Assembly (NCBI GenBank): GCA_031177685.1 | Contig: JAPSGI010000003.1 | Span: 1-64,000, forward strand | From: Solirubrobacteraceae bacterium | GTDB taxonomy: Bacteria; Actinomycetota; Thermoleophilia; Solirubrobacterales; Solirubrobacteraceae | Length of the DNA: 64,000 nt | Reading direction: 5' to 3' | In this document: positions 5,042-9,392 of the stretch, in pieces | How positions within the stretch are numbered: position 1 is the stretch's first letter | How the letters are laid out: each line of letters opens with the position of its first letter | Position numbers and translations under genes: made by a program | The notes under the pieces: model-generated | What the model was told of the DNA's origin: nothing | Seen by the model: only the letters and a program-made list of their open reading frames with translations | Databases searched by the model: none

Positions 5042-5965
5042 ATGCGAACGGCCGTGGTCACCGGGGGTGCCGGCTTCATCGGCTCCCACGTGGCCGACCG
5101 GCTCCTGGAGGAGGGAGTGGCCGTCGTGGCGGTCGACGACCTCTCCACCGGCCGGCGCGAGAACCTCCCGGCGGGCGCGGACTTCGAGGAGTCCGACGTG
5201 CGCGACGCCGAGGCGATGCGCTCGCTGCTGTCCCGCGTGCGGCCCGACGCCGTCTTCCACCTGGCCGCGCAGATCAGCGTCACGCGCTCGGTCTCCGAGG
5301 TGGAGTACGACGCCGACGTGAACGTGCGCGGCACGGCCACGCTGCTGGAGGCCGCGCGGCTGGCCGGCGTGCCGCGCTTCGTCTACGTTTCCACCGGCGG
5401 CGCGCTGTACGGCGAGGCCGACGTGGTGCCCACCCCCGAGGACGCGCCGATCGAGCCGCTGGCGCCCTACGGGCTGAGCAAGTGGGTGGGAGAACGCTAC
5501 TGCGACCTCTACGAGCGCCTGCACGGGCTCTCCACGCTTACGCTGCGCCTGGCCAACATCTACGGCCCGCGTCAGGACCCGCACGGCGAGGCCGGCGTGG
5601 TGGCGATCTTCTGCCAGCGCCTGCACGCCGGCCAGCGGCCGGTGGTGTTCGGCGACGGCCGCCAGACCCGCGACTACGTCTACGCCGGGGACGCGGCGGA
5701 GGCGGTGCTCGCGGCCGGGCGGTCGGACACCACGGGCGCGTTCAACGTCGGTCGCGGCGAGGAGGCCAGCGTGCTCGACCTCGTGGACACGCTGCGCGAG
5801 CTCAGCGGCCGCGACGACTTCCAGCCCGAGCACGCTCCCGAGCGCCCCGGCGAGGCCCGGCGCAGCTGCCTCGACGCCACCCGCGCCGGCGAGGCACTCG
5901 GGTGGCGGGCCACCACGCCCCTGCGCGACGGGCTGGCGGTGACGCTGGAGAGCTTCGCGCCCTAG
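5042..5965 (+). CDS. UDP-glucose 4-epimerase-family protein
   Basis: Extended SDR of 307 residues. GGAGFIG (8-14) binds NAD, DDLSTGRRENLP (32-43) is the classic signature after the second strand, and YGLSK (Tyr143, Lys147) is the catalytic pair, followed by LRLANIYGPRQDP and FGDGRQTRDYVY. These features place it with actinobacterial GalE-like epimerases interconverting UDP-glucose/galactose or their N-acetyl or uronate forms. A GTG four codons upstream is possible, but the ATG starts exactly at the conserved strand and has a -10-like TAGTGT 8 bases ahead. Its TAG stop shares a CTAG with the TAG stop of the converging ATPase gene. Confidence 0.9.
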   Translation: MRTAVVTGGAGFIGSHVADRLLEEGVAVVAVDDLSTGRRENLPAGADFEESDVRDAEAMRSLLSRVRPDAVFHLAAQISVTRSVSEVEYDADVNVRGTATLLEAARLAGVPRFVYVSTGGALYGEADVVPTPEDAPIEPLAPYGLSKWVGERYCDLYERLHGLSTLTLRLANIYGPRQDPHGEAGVVAIFCQRLHAGQRPVVFGDGRQTRDYVYAGDAAEAVLAAGRSDTTGAFNVGRGEEASVLDLVDTLRELSGRDDFQPEHAPERPGEARRSCLDATRAGEALGWRATTPLRDGLAVTLESFAP

Positions 5966-7257
5966 GGACCCAGCAGCGCGGCCGGAACCACGGCGATGCC
6001 GTCCCGCCGCCGGTAAGCCTCCTGCCCCGTGGTGACCACGACCGCGTCGAGGAGCTCATCTCCGATTCGCTCGCCGAGCCACCGGAGGTGACGAACGTCG
6101 GCGTCAGCGACGTCGCGCGCCAGCTTGACCTCGAGCGCGACGATCCGCCCGTCGGCACGCTGCGCGACCAGGTCGATCTCGTGCTCGCCGCCGCCCGTGC
6201 GCAGATGCAGCACGCGCGCCTCGCACGCCTGCGCGTAGACCTTCAGCGAGAGGGTGACCAGCGACTCGAACAGCGCGCCCAGAAGCGTTCCGTCGCGCGG
6301 GATCGGCGGTCCGCTCTCGTTGCCGCTCAGCAGCAAGTCGGCGTCGACGCCCAGCAGGCGTGCGGCCAGGGCGGGGTCGGCCAGATGATGCTTGGGGGCG
6401 AGGCTGAGTCGCCGGATGTGGCTGCGGGTCGGCGCCCACGGTGGCACGGGGTCGAGGATCCACAGCCGGTCCAGGATCTCCCGGTACGGCTGCGTGGTCG
6501 TCTTGGCCGGCTTCTCGCCCTGCCCGCCGGTCGCCGCGCTGCGGATCGTCTCGAATGAGGCCGTCGTCGCCGACGCCGCGGCGTACGCGGTCATCCAGCG
6601 GGTCAGCGCGCCGGGGCTGCGGACCGGATGGCCGAGCTCCGGGAAGTCGCGGTCCACGATCCGTCGGAGGTAGCCGTCGAGCTGCGCCCTCAGCGCGCGC
6701 CCCGAGAGTTCGCGCATGCCGGGGAAGCCGGATCGCAGGATCTCGTCGACGTAGTCGCCGAGCTTCACCGTGGTGGACCCGCCGATCGGTTCGCGCTTCC
6801 CGCCGAGCAGCTCACGCAGGGACACGGTGGGCGGCCCGAGGCCGCGTTCGGCGAGCGACATCGGCCGCATGCGCACGCTGACCATGCGTCCGGCGCCCGA
6901 ATGCGTTCCCGCGCCAGCCGGCGACGCCGAGCTGGCCAGCAGAAACGTCCCTGCGGGGGCGCCCGCGTCCACTCGCCGGCGGACGAGGTCCCAGCACGCG
7001 GGGACGTGCTGCCACTCGTCGAGAAGCACGGGAGGGGGCGAGTCGAGCAGGCGCGCGGGATCTGCGGCGGCGACGTTCCGCTGGGCGGGATCCTCGAGCG
7101 CGTAGACGGTCGCGGCGCGGCGCGACGCCGTGGCGGTCTTGCCCACGGCCTTGGGGCCCTCGACGACCAGGGCCGCGATGGCGGTCATCAAGTCGTCGAG
7201 CTCGGCGTCCACGACGCGCCGGCGATACTCGGGTGGCACGACGACCATTCTCCGCAC
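5962..7257 (-). CDS. AAA_14 / DUF4143 ATPase
   Basis: Residues 34-41 form a Walker A (GPKAVGKT) and LLDEWQ near 78-83 a Walker B, as in the AAA_14 family. The C-terminal half is DUF4143-like, ending in a restriction-endonuclease-like core with EIDLV near 360 and EVK near 376. Such 400-450 residue ATPases are widespread, scattered by transfer, and mostly uncharacterised; toxin-antitoxin or defence roles have been proposed but not established. Two starts are possible: the GTG used here or an ATG three codons later. The gene interrupts the sugar locus and appears to be an insertion. Three CCGTCA iterons spaced exactly 23 bp surround its likely -10 (TAGTCT), so it is probably tightly and perhaps autogenously controlled. 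Confidence 0.88.
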   Translation of the reverse strand: MRRMVVVPPEYRRRVVDAELDDLMTAIAALVVEGPKAVGKTATASRRAATVYALEDPAQRNVAAADPARLLDSPPPVLLDEWQHVPACWDLVRRRVDAGAPAGTFLLASSASPAGAGTHSGAGRMVSVRMRPMSLAERGLGPPTVSLRELLGGKREPIGGSTTVKLGDYVDEILRSGFPGMRELSGRALRAQLDGYLRRIVDRDFPELGHPVRSPGALTRWMTAYAAASATTASFETIRSAATGGQGEKPAKTTTQPYREILDRLWILDPVPPWAPTRSHIRRLSLAPKHHLADPALAARLLGVDADLLLSGNESGPPIPRDGTLLGALFESLVTLSLKVYAQACEARVLHLRTGGGEHEIDLVAQRADGRIVALEVKLARDVADADVRHLRWLGERIGDELLDAVVVTTGQEAYRRRDGIAVVPAALLGP

Positions 7258-7263
7258 CCTACC

Positions 7264-7319
7264 ATCCTGACGGCGTTTAGACTACCGTTTTGACGGCCGC
7301 AAAGCGCCGATTCTGACGG
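7264..7319 (-). promoter_or_regulatory. three 23-bp-phased CCGTCA iterons flanking the -10 of the AAA/DUF4143 gene
   Basis: Read on the plus strand, ATCCTGACGG (7264-7273), GTTTTGACGG (7287-7296) and ATTCTGACGG (7310-7319) start exactly 23 bases apart; the first two extend leftward into CTACC. The middle copy contains the palindrome CCGTTTTGACGG. On the minus strand TAGTCT (7284-7279) is a good -10, lying between the first and second copies and about 20 bases from the start codon. The geometry (same face of the helix, overlapping the promoter) suggests an operator. Confidence 0.55.
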
Positions 7320-7323
7320 AGCG

Positions 7324-8586
7324 CTAGTCGTCCACGGTGACGAGCGCGCTGACCTCGGCCGCGTAGGCGAACACCTGCGAGGAGCCGAAGGTGTTCCACG
7401 GGTCGATGACCAGGCACCCGTCGCCGGCCAGGTCCTGGATCTCGCGCAGGCGGGCGGGGCCGTCGAAGGCGGAGTGGTTGGTGGCCACGACGACGGCGTC
7501 GGCGTCGCGGACGGCGTCCTCGAAGGTCTGGGTCGGCGTGCGCACGACGGGGTCGTGAATCGCCACGTCGGCCAGCTCGCGCTCCAGCAGGCGGATGAGC
7601 TTGTGGGAGAGCGAGTCGCGCTCGTCGTCGGTGTCGCGCTTGAAGGCGAGGCCGAGCACCGCGACCTTGCGGCCCGACAGCTCGCCCAGCCGGCGCTTGG
7701 CGCCCTCGACGAGGAACAGCGGCACCGACTCGTTCACGCGCGAGACCGCCAGCAGCATCCCGGGGGCGGCCGAGCGCTCCTCGGAGAATGCGAAGTCCTT
7801 GCGCAGGCAGGTGCCCGCCGTCAGGCCGGGATCGGCGATCCCGCCGCGCGGATAGTCGCGGTTGATCAGGTCGATCACCTCGAACACGTTCGCGCCGTGC
7901 TGCTCGCAGTCCATCATCAGCAGGTTGGGCAGCGCGAAGTGCGTGTAGCGGATGATGTTCGTCCAGATCTTCGCTAGCTCGGCCTGGACCGGCGTGGTCT
8001 GCACGATCGGCGCGCGAAAGACCGAGAAGAGCTTGGCCACCTCCTCGCCGGAACGCTCGCCCACCCCACCGACGATGCAGGGAAGCGTGTCGATCTCCTC
8101 CAGGAAGCGGCCGGCGGCGATCCGCTCGGGCGCGTGGGCCACGAACATGTCGGCGCCCACGTCGAACCCACGCTGCTTGGCCAGGTAGCCGGCGACGAAG
8201 TCCGTCGTCCCGGGCGCGATCGTCGAGCGCAGCACCAGCGCGTGGCCCGGCCGCAGCACCGGCAGCAGGTCGTCCAGCGCGGAGCGGATGTCGCGCATGT
8301 CGATCTCGATGTGCGAGAACGACGGCGTCCCGAGCGTCATCACGATGTGCTGCGCCTGCGCGGCCTCCGGGACGGCGTCGGTGAGCTTCAGCCGCCCGGA
8401 CGCCTGGACGCGCTCGAGCAGCTCCTGGGTGCCGGTCTCCTCGAACGGCATGCGCCCGGCGCCGACCGCGGCGAGGCGGTCGGGGTCCTTGTCGACGCCC
8501 ACGACGGTCAGGCCGCGATCGGCGAAGCACAGCGCCAGCGGCAGCCCGACTCGCCCGAGGCCGATGACGGAGACGTCCGCGGACAT
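7324..8586 (-). CDS. nucleotide-sugar dehydrogenase (UDP-ManNAc/UDP-glucose dehydrogenase family)
   Basis: Oxidises C6 of a nucleotide sugar to the uronate with two NAD+. The Rossmann glycine motif GLGRVG is at residues 9-14, the catalytic cysteine lies in GTCLRKDF near residue 260, and the C-terminal domain carries VAVLGLAFKRDTDDERDS. The sequence is closer to the WecC/TviB type (UDP-N-acetylhexosamine dehydrogenases) than to Ugd, for example in LRSTIAPGTTD and HAPERIAAGRF. I used the ATG at the start of strand one (420 residues): TAGCCT sits 8 bases upstream of it, overlapping the region where a GTG seven codons earlier would be. The product would supply a uronic acid for the exported glycan. 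Confidence 0.92.
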   Translation of the reverse strand: MSADVSVIGLGRVGLPLALCFADRGLTVVGVDKDPDRLAAVGAGRMPFEETGTQELLERVQASGRLKLTDAVPEAAQAQHIVMTLGTPSFSHIEIDMRDIRSALDDLLPVLRPGHALVLRSTIAPGTTDFVAGYLAKQRGFDVGADMFVAHAPERIAAGRFLEEIDTLPCIVGGVGERSGEEVAKLFSVFRAPIVQTTPVQAELAKIWTNIIRYTHFALPNLLMMDCEQHGANVFEVIDLINRDYPRGGIADPGLTAGTCLRKDFAFSEERSAAPGMLLAVSRVNESVPLFLVEGAKRRLGELSGRKVAVLGLAFKRDTDDERDSLSHKLIRLLERELADVAIHDPVVRTPTQTFEDAVRDADAVVVATNHSAFDGPARLREIQDLAGDGCLVIDPWNTFGSSQVFAYAAEVSALVTVDD

Positions 8587-8594
8587 GGGCGCAG

Positions 8595-8600
8595 AGGCTA
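8595..8600 (-). promoter_or_regulatory. -10 element (TAGCCT) of the nucleotide-sugar dehydrogenase
   Basis: TAGCCT on the minus strand ends 8 bases before the ATG and there is no Shine-Dalgarno. This supports the ATG over the upstream GTG, which would lie before the transcript start. Confidence 0.5.
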
Positions 8601-8670
8601 GCGGCACGTGGACTTCAACGGCCGGCGGGGCGAATCGTTGCTGCGCCGCCTCTTTGAGGCGCTGTTGAGC

Positions 8671-8709: not shown

Positions 8710-8961
8710 GTGCGCACGACGCTCACGCTCGACCCGGATGTCGCGGCGAAGCTGCGCGCGCTGTCCCGCGAGCGCGGCATCCCGTTCAAGGAGGCGGTGA
8801 ACTCCACGCTGCGCCGCGGACTGGCCCCTGCCGCCGCGCGGCAGCCGTACCGGCTTCCGACCTACTCCCTCGGGTTGCGCTTCGGGGACGCGACGCCCAG
8901 TGCGGTCCTGGCGGCGCTGGACGACGAGGAGCTGCTGCGAAAGCGCGCGCTGGGCAAGTGA
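8710..8961 (+). CDS. vapB: VapB-type ribbon-helix-helix antitoxin
   Basis: An 83-residue protein starting MRTTLTLDPDVAAKLRAL, the beta strand and first helix of a ribbon-helix-helix DNA-binding fold, followed by ERGIPFKEAVNSTLRRGL. The C-terminal half, with the LGLRFGDATPSAVLAALDDEELL stretch, is the type that wraps the toxin in VapBC complexes. The antitoxin would neutralise the next gene's nuclease and autoregulate the operon. The start is GTG without a Shine-Dalgarno; a TATGAT 6 bases upstream suggests a leaderless message. Its TGA overlaps the toxin's GTG by four bases, so the two are translationally coupled. Confidence 0.9.
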   Translation: MRTTLTLDPDVAAKLRALSRERGIPFKEAVNSTLRRGLAPAAARQPYRLPTYSLGLRFGDATPSAVLAALDDEELLRKRALGK

Positions 8962-9392
8962 AGCTCCCGGACCTCAACGTCGTGGTGTACGCCGTCGACG
9001 AGCAGGCCCCGCACCACGAGCCGGCGCGCGCCTGGCTCGAGGGTGCGCTGTCGGGCGCCGAGACGGTCGCCCTCGCCTGGCAGGTGCTCGTCGGGTTCGT
9101 GCGGCTGGCGACGCATCCCGCCGTCGCCGAGCGTCCGCTCACGACGGACGAGGCGATCGACCTGATCGCGGCCTGGTTGGCCCAGCCGCCCGTGGTCGTG
9201 GTCAACCCGACCGACCGTCATCCCGCCGTCTTGCGCGACCTGCTGGCGCCGCTGGGCACCGGAGGGAACCTCGTCCCCGACGCACACCTGGCGGCCCTCG
9301 CCATCGAGCACGGCGCGGAGCTGGTGTCGTTCGACAACGACTTCTCGCGCTTCCCCGGGTTGCGCTGGACGGACCCGCGCGGCGGCGGGTGA
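8958..9392 (+). CDS. vapC: VapC-type PIN-domain toxin
   Basis: A 144-residue PIN nuclease. PDLNVVVYAVDE begins the fold with Asp5 as the first metal ligand; GFVRLATHP, DAHLAALAIEHGAELVSFDNDFSRFPGLRW supply the later acidic residues and the family signature. Related mycobacterial VapC toxins cleave tRNA or rRNA. As in that subfamily the usual mid-protein glutamate motif is replaced by the LVGFVRL segment. GTG start overlaps the vapB stop. The pair is inserted between the nucleotide-sugar dehydrogenase and an rfbC-like gene and may simply stabilise the locus. Confidence 0.93.
   Translation: MKLPDLNVVVYAVDEQAPHHEPARAWLEGALSGAETVALAWQVLVGFVRLATHPAVAERPLTTDEAIDLIAAWLAQPPVVVVNPTDRHPAVLRDLLAPLGTGGNLVPDAHLAALAIEHGAELVSFDNDFSRFPGLRWTDPRGGG

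Follow-up and report, generated by a model that had tools for sequence, protein, structure and literature searches.

A phased array of direct repeats on the promoter of a DUF4143 ATPase as its probable self-operator

Results

The window, i.e. the whole stretch of 64,000 nucleotides analysed here (Solirubrobacteraceae bacterium, contig JAPSGI010000003.1, positions 1 to 64,000), carries an array of three direct repeats that occupies the gap between a dehydrogenase gene and a gene encoding an ATPase with AAA_14 and DUF4143 domains. On the plus strand, the hexamer TGACGG stands at 7268-7273, 7291-7296 and 7314-7319, and the coordinates confirm an earlier reading of this DNA (the original prediction), according to which the three copies start exactly 23 bp apart; the same reading had taken 23 bp as two helical turns, and B-DNA gives about 2.2. 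The features of the locus are as follows:

7324-8607, minus strand: UDP-glucose/GDP-mannose dehydrogenase gene, the upstream neighbour
7298..7320, minus strand: iteron copy 1 (distal), TCCGTCAGAATCGGCGCTTTGCG, beginning right after the dehydrogenase stop; from the sequence, with the register of an operator model of 102 loci
7275..7297, minus strand: iteron copy 2, GCCGTCAAAACGGTAGTCTAAAC; from the sequence and the operator-model register
7252..7274, minus strand: iteron copy 3 (proximal), GCCGTCAGGATGGTAGGGTGCGG, including the -10; from the sequence and the operator-model register
7256..7261, minus strand: putative -10 hexamer TAGGGT within copy 3, 7 nt upstream of the ATG; from comparison with homologues
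5962..7248, minus strand: AAA_14 + DUF4143 ATPase / PD-(D/E)XK-type nuclease, 428 amino acids, with a probable leaderless ATG; from Pfam and PADLOC

As a single word the hexamer shows no excess in the window (47 occurrences vs 51 expected); the equidistant triplet is the sole one and arose in 0 of 200 Markov resamples. Read on the gene strand, the units TCCGTCAGAATCGGCGCTTTGCG, GCCGTCAAAACGGTAGTCTAAAC and GCCGTCAGGATGGTAGGGTGCGG have in common the site CCGTCARRAYSG, followed by a -10-like TAG stretch, indicating that the shared site spans ~17 bp and exceeds the hexamer.

A survey of bacterial homologues revealed that the phase of the array is a property of the family. Scanning genome contigs yielded 77 relatives, assigned by record title to Actinomycetota, Chloroflexi, Gemmatimonadetes, Acidobacteria, Elusimicrobia, Bacteroidota and Gammaproteobacteria, many of them metagenome bins for which single taxon assignments may be wrong; more distant relatives were added from a phylum search. 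Direct repeats were present in the promoters of almost all close relatives. The best self-match lag was 23 bp in 66 of 73 promoters (window and homologues) and 24 bp in 3 more, as against about 1/73 at 23 bp in control regions taken from gene bodies or from 400-600 bp upstream, and 3/145 in promoters of other genes of the same loci. Chance or an artefact of promoter composition might account for a single window, for which, taken alone, the lag test yields a p of about 0.03, but these comparisons refute it and leave it a negligible probability. Above 50% identity the lag of 23 bp was found in 78/82 homologues, and lags of 22-24 bp in 12/14 homologues at 34-38% identity, 33/37 at 30-34% and 27/40 at 20-30%, the 22-24 bp phase thus being kept in most homologues down to ~25-30% protein identity and in seven or more phyla. 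It recurs beyond the phyla of the close set, in Bacteroidota, Pseudomonadota, Bacillota, Chlorobiota and further Actinomycetota, and other DUF4143 lineages of the window's own family likewise carry arrays, as do plasmid-borne relatives in Bacteroides, Collinsella, Agrobacterium, Novosphingobium, Azotobacter, Lentilactobacillus, Mycobacterium and Prosthecochloris. Some sub-lineages keep a phase of 22 bp (L171, L172, L196, L246, L260, L261, L263) or 24 bp (L084, L086, L087, L116, L117, L162), which may reflect a different spacing of bound protomers.

Alignment of 102 loci into an operator model showed which bases are repeated within a locus and which are common to all. Columns 4-6 were 81-85% identical within a locus and 32-36% between loci, column 12 was 93% identical within and 90% between loci, columns 12 and 18 were common to most loci, and the linker columns 21, 22, 0 and 1 were near background even within one locus. 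This pattern indicates that the unit is a bipartite site of ~17 bp plus a spacer, the site combining a box peculiar to each locus with GGTAGYGTA as the shared part. The arrays hold two to five copies, three in half of the loci, and paralogues of one genome carry unrelated words. Repeats of the kind that had been postulated as a conserved operator are present upstream of nearly all close and most distant homologues, although the search proposed for it, i.e. for phased CCGTCA, fails because the word changes between loci: the phase is common and the word is not. Matching sites elsewhere in the loci were at chance (2 further sites in 76 loci vs 1 in the control), and a blind search of 296 genomes for two phased GGTAGYSTA returned two places only, both of them DUF4143 promoters. 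No other array was found in the genome of the window, where further matches to CCGTCARRAYSG are isolated; a regulon in this genome was rejected, since these matches stand singly.

The array is located on the promoter of the ATPase gene, the position expected of the operator of a self-binding autoregulator. The -10 had been placed between the first two copies, but the TAGTCT found there belongs to the middle repeat, and the working -10 is probably TAGGGT (7261-7256) in the proximal copy. ATG 7248 sits 7 nt after this hexamer, making a leaderless transcript probable, whereas GTG 7257 overlaps the -10 and is improbable as start. A TAnnnT is found at the same operator position in 80/102 loci, with the start codon 6-8 nt downstream of the -10 in 55/102, suggesting that promoters of the family are mostly leaderless with the -10 inside the last copy. 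T13, A14 and T18, the -10 hexamer positions, are 95-97% conserved in last copies and 70-90% conserved in upstream copies, indicating a double role of these bases, in the promoter and in binding. Between 5900 and 8700, no -35/-10 pair fitting the sigma-70 consensus was found.

We examined which protein reads the operator by computing co-variation between operator columns and residues of the ATPase after removing overall protein identity. Residues are numbered from the longer open reading frame (ORF) starting at GTG 7257 (431 amino acids), in which the relevant elements are:

7135..7158, minus strand: Walker A GPKAVGKT, residues 34-41; G34, G39 and K40 invariant in 118 relatives
6496..6507, minus strand: A251-K252-T253-T254, putative recognition helix; from co-variation with operator columns 11 and 14-17
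6184..6195, minus strand: residues 355-358 (GGGE), loop preceding the nuclease motif; from co-variation with columns 6 and 2-3
6124..6180, minus strand: PD-(D/E)XK motif E360-x-D362 ... E376-x-K378; from conservation in 118 relatives

Similarity of the common part of the operator was best predicted by residues 251-265, the best 15-residue window (r 0.46; maximum of 200 label permutations 0.27). Column 11 co-varied with residue 252 (r 0.60, z 12.7), columns 14-17 with residues 251, 253 and 254, column 6 with residue 355 (z 7.4), column 2 with residue 358, and column 4 with residues 270, 282 and 283. The changes follow simple rules: K252 goes with G and R252 with T at column 11; R or K355 goes with C (G on the other strand) and H355 with G (18/18) at column 6; R282 goes with T4. 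In independent pairs, drawn on a tree built without the co-varying regions, 18 of the 22 K/R pairs at residue 252 had exactly G vs T at column 11, and 15 of the 17 pairs at residue 355 (H,Q-type vs R,K) had exactly G vs C at column 6. The protein of the window follows the rules: its K252 goes with G in two of the three copies, R282 with T4 and E358 with C2. As changes in the operator go along with changes in the ATPase's residues, this co-variation makes it almost certain that the ATPase itself binds its repeats, in keeping with the earlier idea of a dedicated protein, possibly the ATPase, as binder, be it for autoregulation or as a defence switch. Residues 251-254 probably form the recognition helix, and residues 355-358 would form a DNA-reading loop beside the nuclease motif. 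Phased sites in general often serve unlinked regulators, and the repeats could in principle be bound by another regulator of the host, e.g. an unlinked repressor; however, the words of paralogues differ within one genome, there is no linked partner gene and the bases follow the ATPase's own residues, which renders such a regulator very unlikely.

The same columns bear on the probable effect of binding on expression. Auto-activation, in which the protein on these repeats would recruit RNA polymerase and substitute for the missing -35, agrees with the lack of a -35 consensus and with the upstream copies being located where class II activators bind. Yet columns 14-17, which co-vary with residues 251-254, fall within the last copy's -10 hexamer, implying competition between sigma and the protein for these bases; we thus consider auto-activation unlikely and regard autorepression by coverage of the -10 as the best-supported mechanism.

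The protein matches PF13173 with 41.6 bits (gathering 27) and PF13635 with 85.9 bits (gathering 28.1), as well as the PADLOC PDC-S01 model PDLC04790 (E 1.1e-71, residues 10-429 of 431), a family that we take to be also COG1373. Its sequence motifs point to a fusion of ATPase and PD-(D/E)XK domains. Among the 118 relatives (24-72% identity to the window protein), D362 and E376 are invariant, E360 and K378 are conserved in at least 90%, and Walker A and Walker B are invariant or nearly so, suggesting that ATPase and nuclease chemistry are both kept. The repeats might, compatibly with autoregulation, also be the target of the nuclease, being cut or nicked so as to exclude incoming copies of the same element or to serve as a mobility site. 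The conserved nuclease residues, the specificity loop adjoining the active site, and the patchy multi-phylum distribution with plasmid copies would fit this idea; the sites nevertheless lie, still intact, on the gene's own promoter, and there are no matching sites elsewhere in the loci and hence no element ends, so that we hold a nuclease target to be rather unlikely.

None of the 435 flanking ORFs is a conserved neighbour: neither an adjacent conserved partner gene, as in toxin-antitoxin systems, nor replication or partition genes, as at an origin, were found among them. Iterons of a plasmid-type replication origin would explain phased head-to-tail direct repeats beside an ATPase gene, the AAA domain of which has weak profile similarity to clamp-loader and origin recognition complex (ORC) subunits, but most copies are on genome contigs without conserved neighbours and the array abuts a leaderless promoter, making an origin extremely unlikely.

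Scanning IMG/VR for phased operator pairs returned 33 contigs at 23 bp, 10 at 22 bp, 26 at 24 bp and 1 at 26 bp. The 23-bp matches, 19 of which are distinct after exact repeats were removed, carry A/T at columns 8-9 in 95% of cases vs 38% at 24 bp, and their boxes are repeated within the array (identity 0.59; 0/2000 shuffles), while the boxes of the 24-bp matches are unrelated. No DUF4143 relative was found on the viral contig stretches examined, and IMG/VR contained neither protein relatives of the close clade nor, in its viral contigs, exact CCGTCA arrays. These patterns suggest that phages carry DUF4143-type operators without the gene. The viral operator pairs at 23 bp are L266-L298, e.g. 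L272:7260-7291, L288 and L271/L282/L291/L293/L294/L295/L297. One viral group (GTGATATTTCGGTAGTGTATAAA GTGATAAAACGGTAGTGTA) is closest to the operator of a Pontimonas DUF4143 gene (L074); no host match for the phage operator group was found in 396 genomes of the window's phylum.

Several relatives carry broken or split DUF4143 homologues with stops or as fragments (G218:C36, G386:C87, G616:C1:1736894-1738163, G055:C13), suggesting frequent gain and loss of these genes. At one locus (L049) a second DUF4143-type gene lies upstream of the first in opposite orientation. In the window, positions 8710-9392 of the plus strand, two genes from the DUF4143 gene, hold a small ORF without a Pfam match followed by a PIN-domain gene (PF01850), a VapBC-like toxin-antitoxin pair.

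Discussion

Together, the data indicate that the DUF4143 ATPase uses these repeats as a self-operator, made of bipartite sites of ~17 bp and serving autorepression, a reading to which we assign a probability of roughly 0.8. Each protein would recognise its own bipartite site, two to five tandem copies of which recur every 22-24 bp on the promoter of its gene. Residues 251-254, the probable recognition helix of a DUF4143 winged helix, would read the GGTAG half, and the loop 355-358 near the PD-(D/E)XK active site, with residues 282-283, would read the variable box. As the proximal site includes the -10, protein bound there should exclude RNA polymerase and so hold its own level down; neighbouring copies are presumably bound side by side, perhaps cooperatively, the upstream ones adding occupancy. 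With its own word at each locus, paralogues in one cell would be insulated from cross-regulation. Derepression may follow upon invasion by foreign DNA.

Several observations weigh against this reading. About one third of the upstream regions lack a clear phase at 20-30% identity; the upstream regions of the Thermus and Subdoligranulum homologues that we checked have no array, and that of a Sinorhizobium homologue has a weak array only. Some distant members have their array upstream of the -10, a position that would permit activation. The winged helix of DUF4143 is itself deduced: searching the PDB by sequence for a solved structure of any relative gave weak AAA matches, none of them a relative. 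Finally, the co-varying sites were picked from many columns, a choice guarded against phylogeny by the independent pairs and the label permutations.

Parts of the system resemble known ones. In restriction-modification systems, controller (C) proteins couple expression of a nuclease to a promoter operator that each recognises as its own and that has diverged from one system to the next; DUF4143 loci would be alike in having such a self-specific, nuclease-linked operator, but C proteins are regulators separate from the nuclease and bind inverted repeats, while here one polypeptide would do both on direct repeats. DUF4143 loci would share with type II toxin-antitoxin loci an autoregulated promoter, and they likewise have repeated operator sites and many divergent paralogues per genome, but they have no antitoxin gene or conserved partner. 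Plasmid Rep initiators are winged-helix proteins that bind direct repeats ~two helical turns apart and can repress their own gene; the spacing, the putative winged-helix binder and the possible self-repression are similar, but DUF4143 arrays are mainly on genome contigs and on the -10, and no features of an origin were noticed, none having been looked for.

PDC-S01 is described as the fusion of an ATPase with a PD-(D/E)XK-type domain; it is reported to rank fourth in abundance among prokaryotic defence candidates, with 29,494 instances in bacteria and 9,986 in archaea, and to be unvalidated (PMC12988326). The protein studied here is alike in family by profile, in being a single gene and in its ATPase and PD-(D/E)XK-type domains; the difference is that the literature searched covers the protein and its spread only. 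In the literature searched, which mostly excluded subscription journals and preprints, no description of an operator or of regulation of DUF4143/PDC-S01/COG1373 was found, nor did the literature searched combine iterons, autoregulation, ATPase, winged helix and defense. In Thermus thermophilus, RNA of the DUF4143 gene TT_P0211 rose 6.6-fold with a plasmid in an Argonaute-proficient strain (PMC4406477). That rise is compatible with an inducible system, although the Thermus homologue we examined is without a clear array.

A self-operator joining ATPase, nuclease and specific DNA reading in one polypeptide would be an unusual design for an autoregulator. A tentative extension, which we find possible but doubtful, is that DUF4143/PDC-S01 proteins are one-protein switches parked on their own repeats and that phages carry copies of the operator as decoys, or to eavesdrop; if phages do carry these operators, it would amount to counter-play via DNA decoys. 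For the family as a whole, a self-operator visible in most members would provide the first molecular handle on PDC-S01, offering a defined DNA ligand for each protein, a residue-to-base code and a reporter for inducers.
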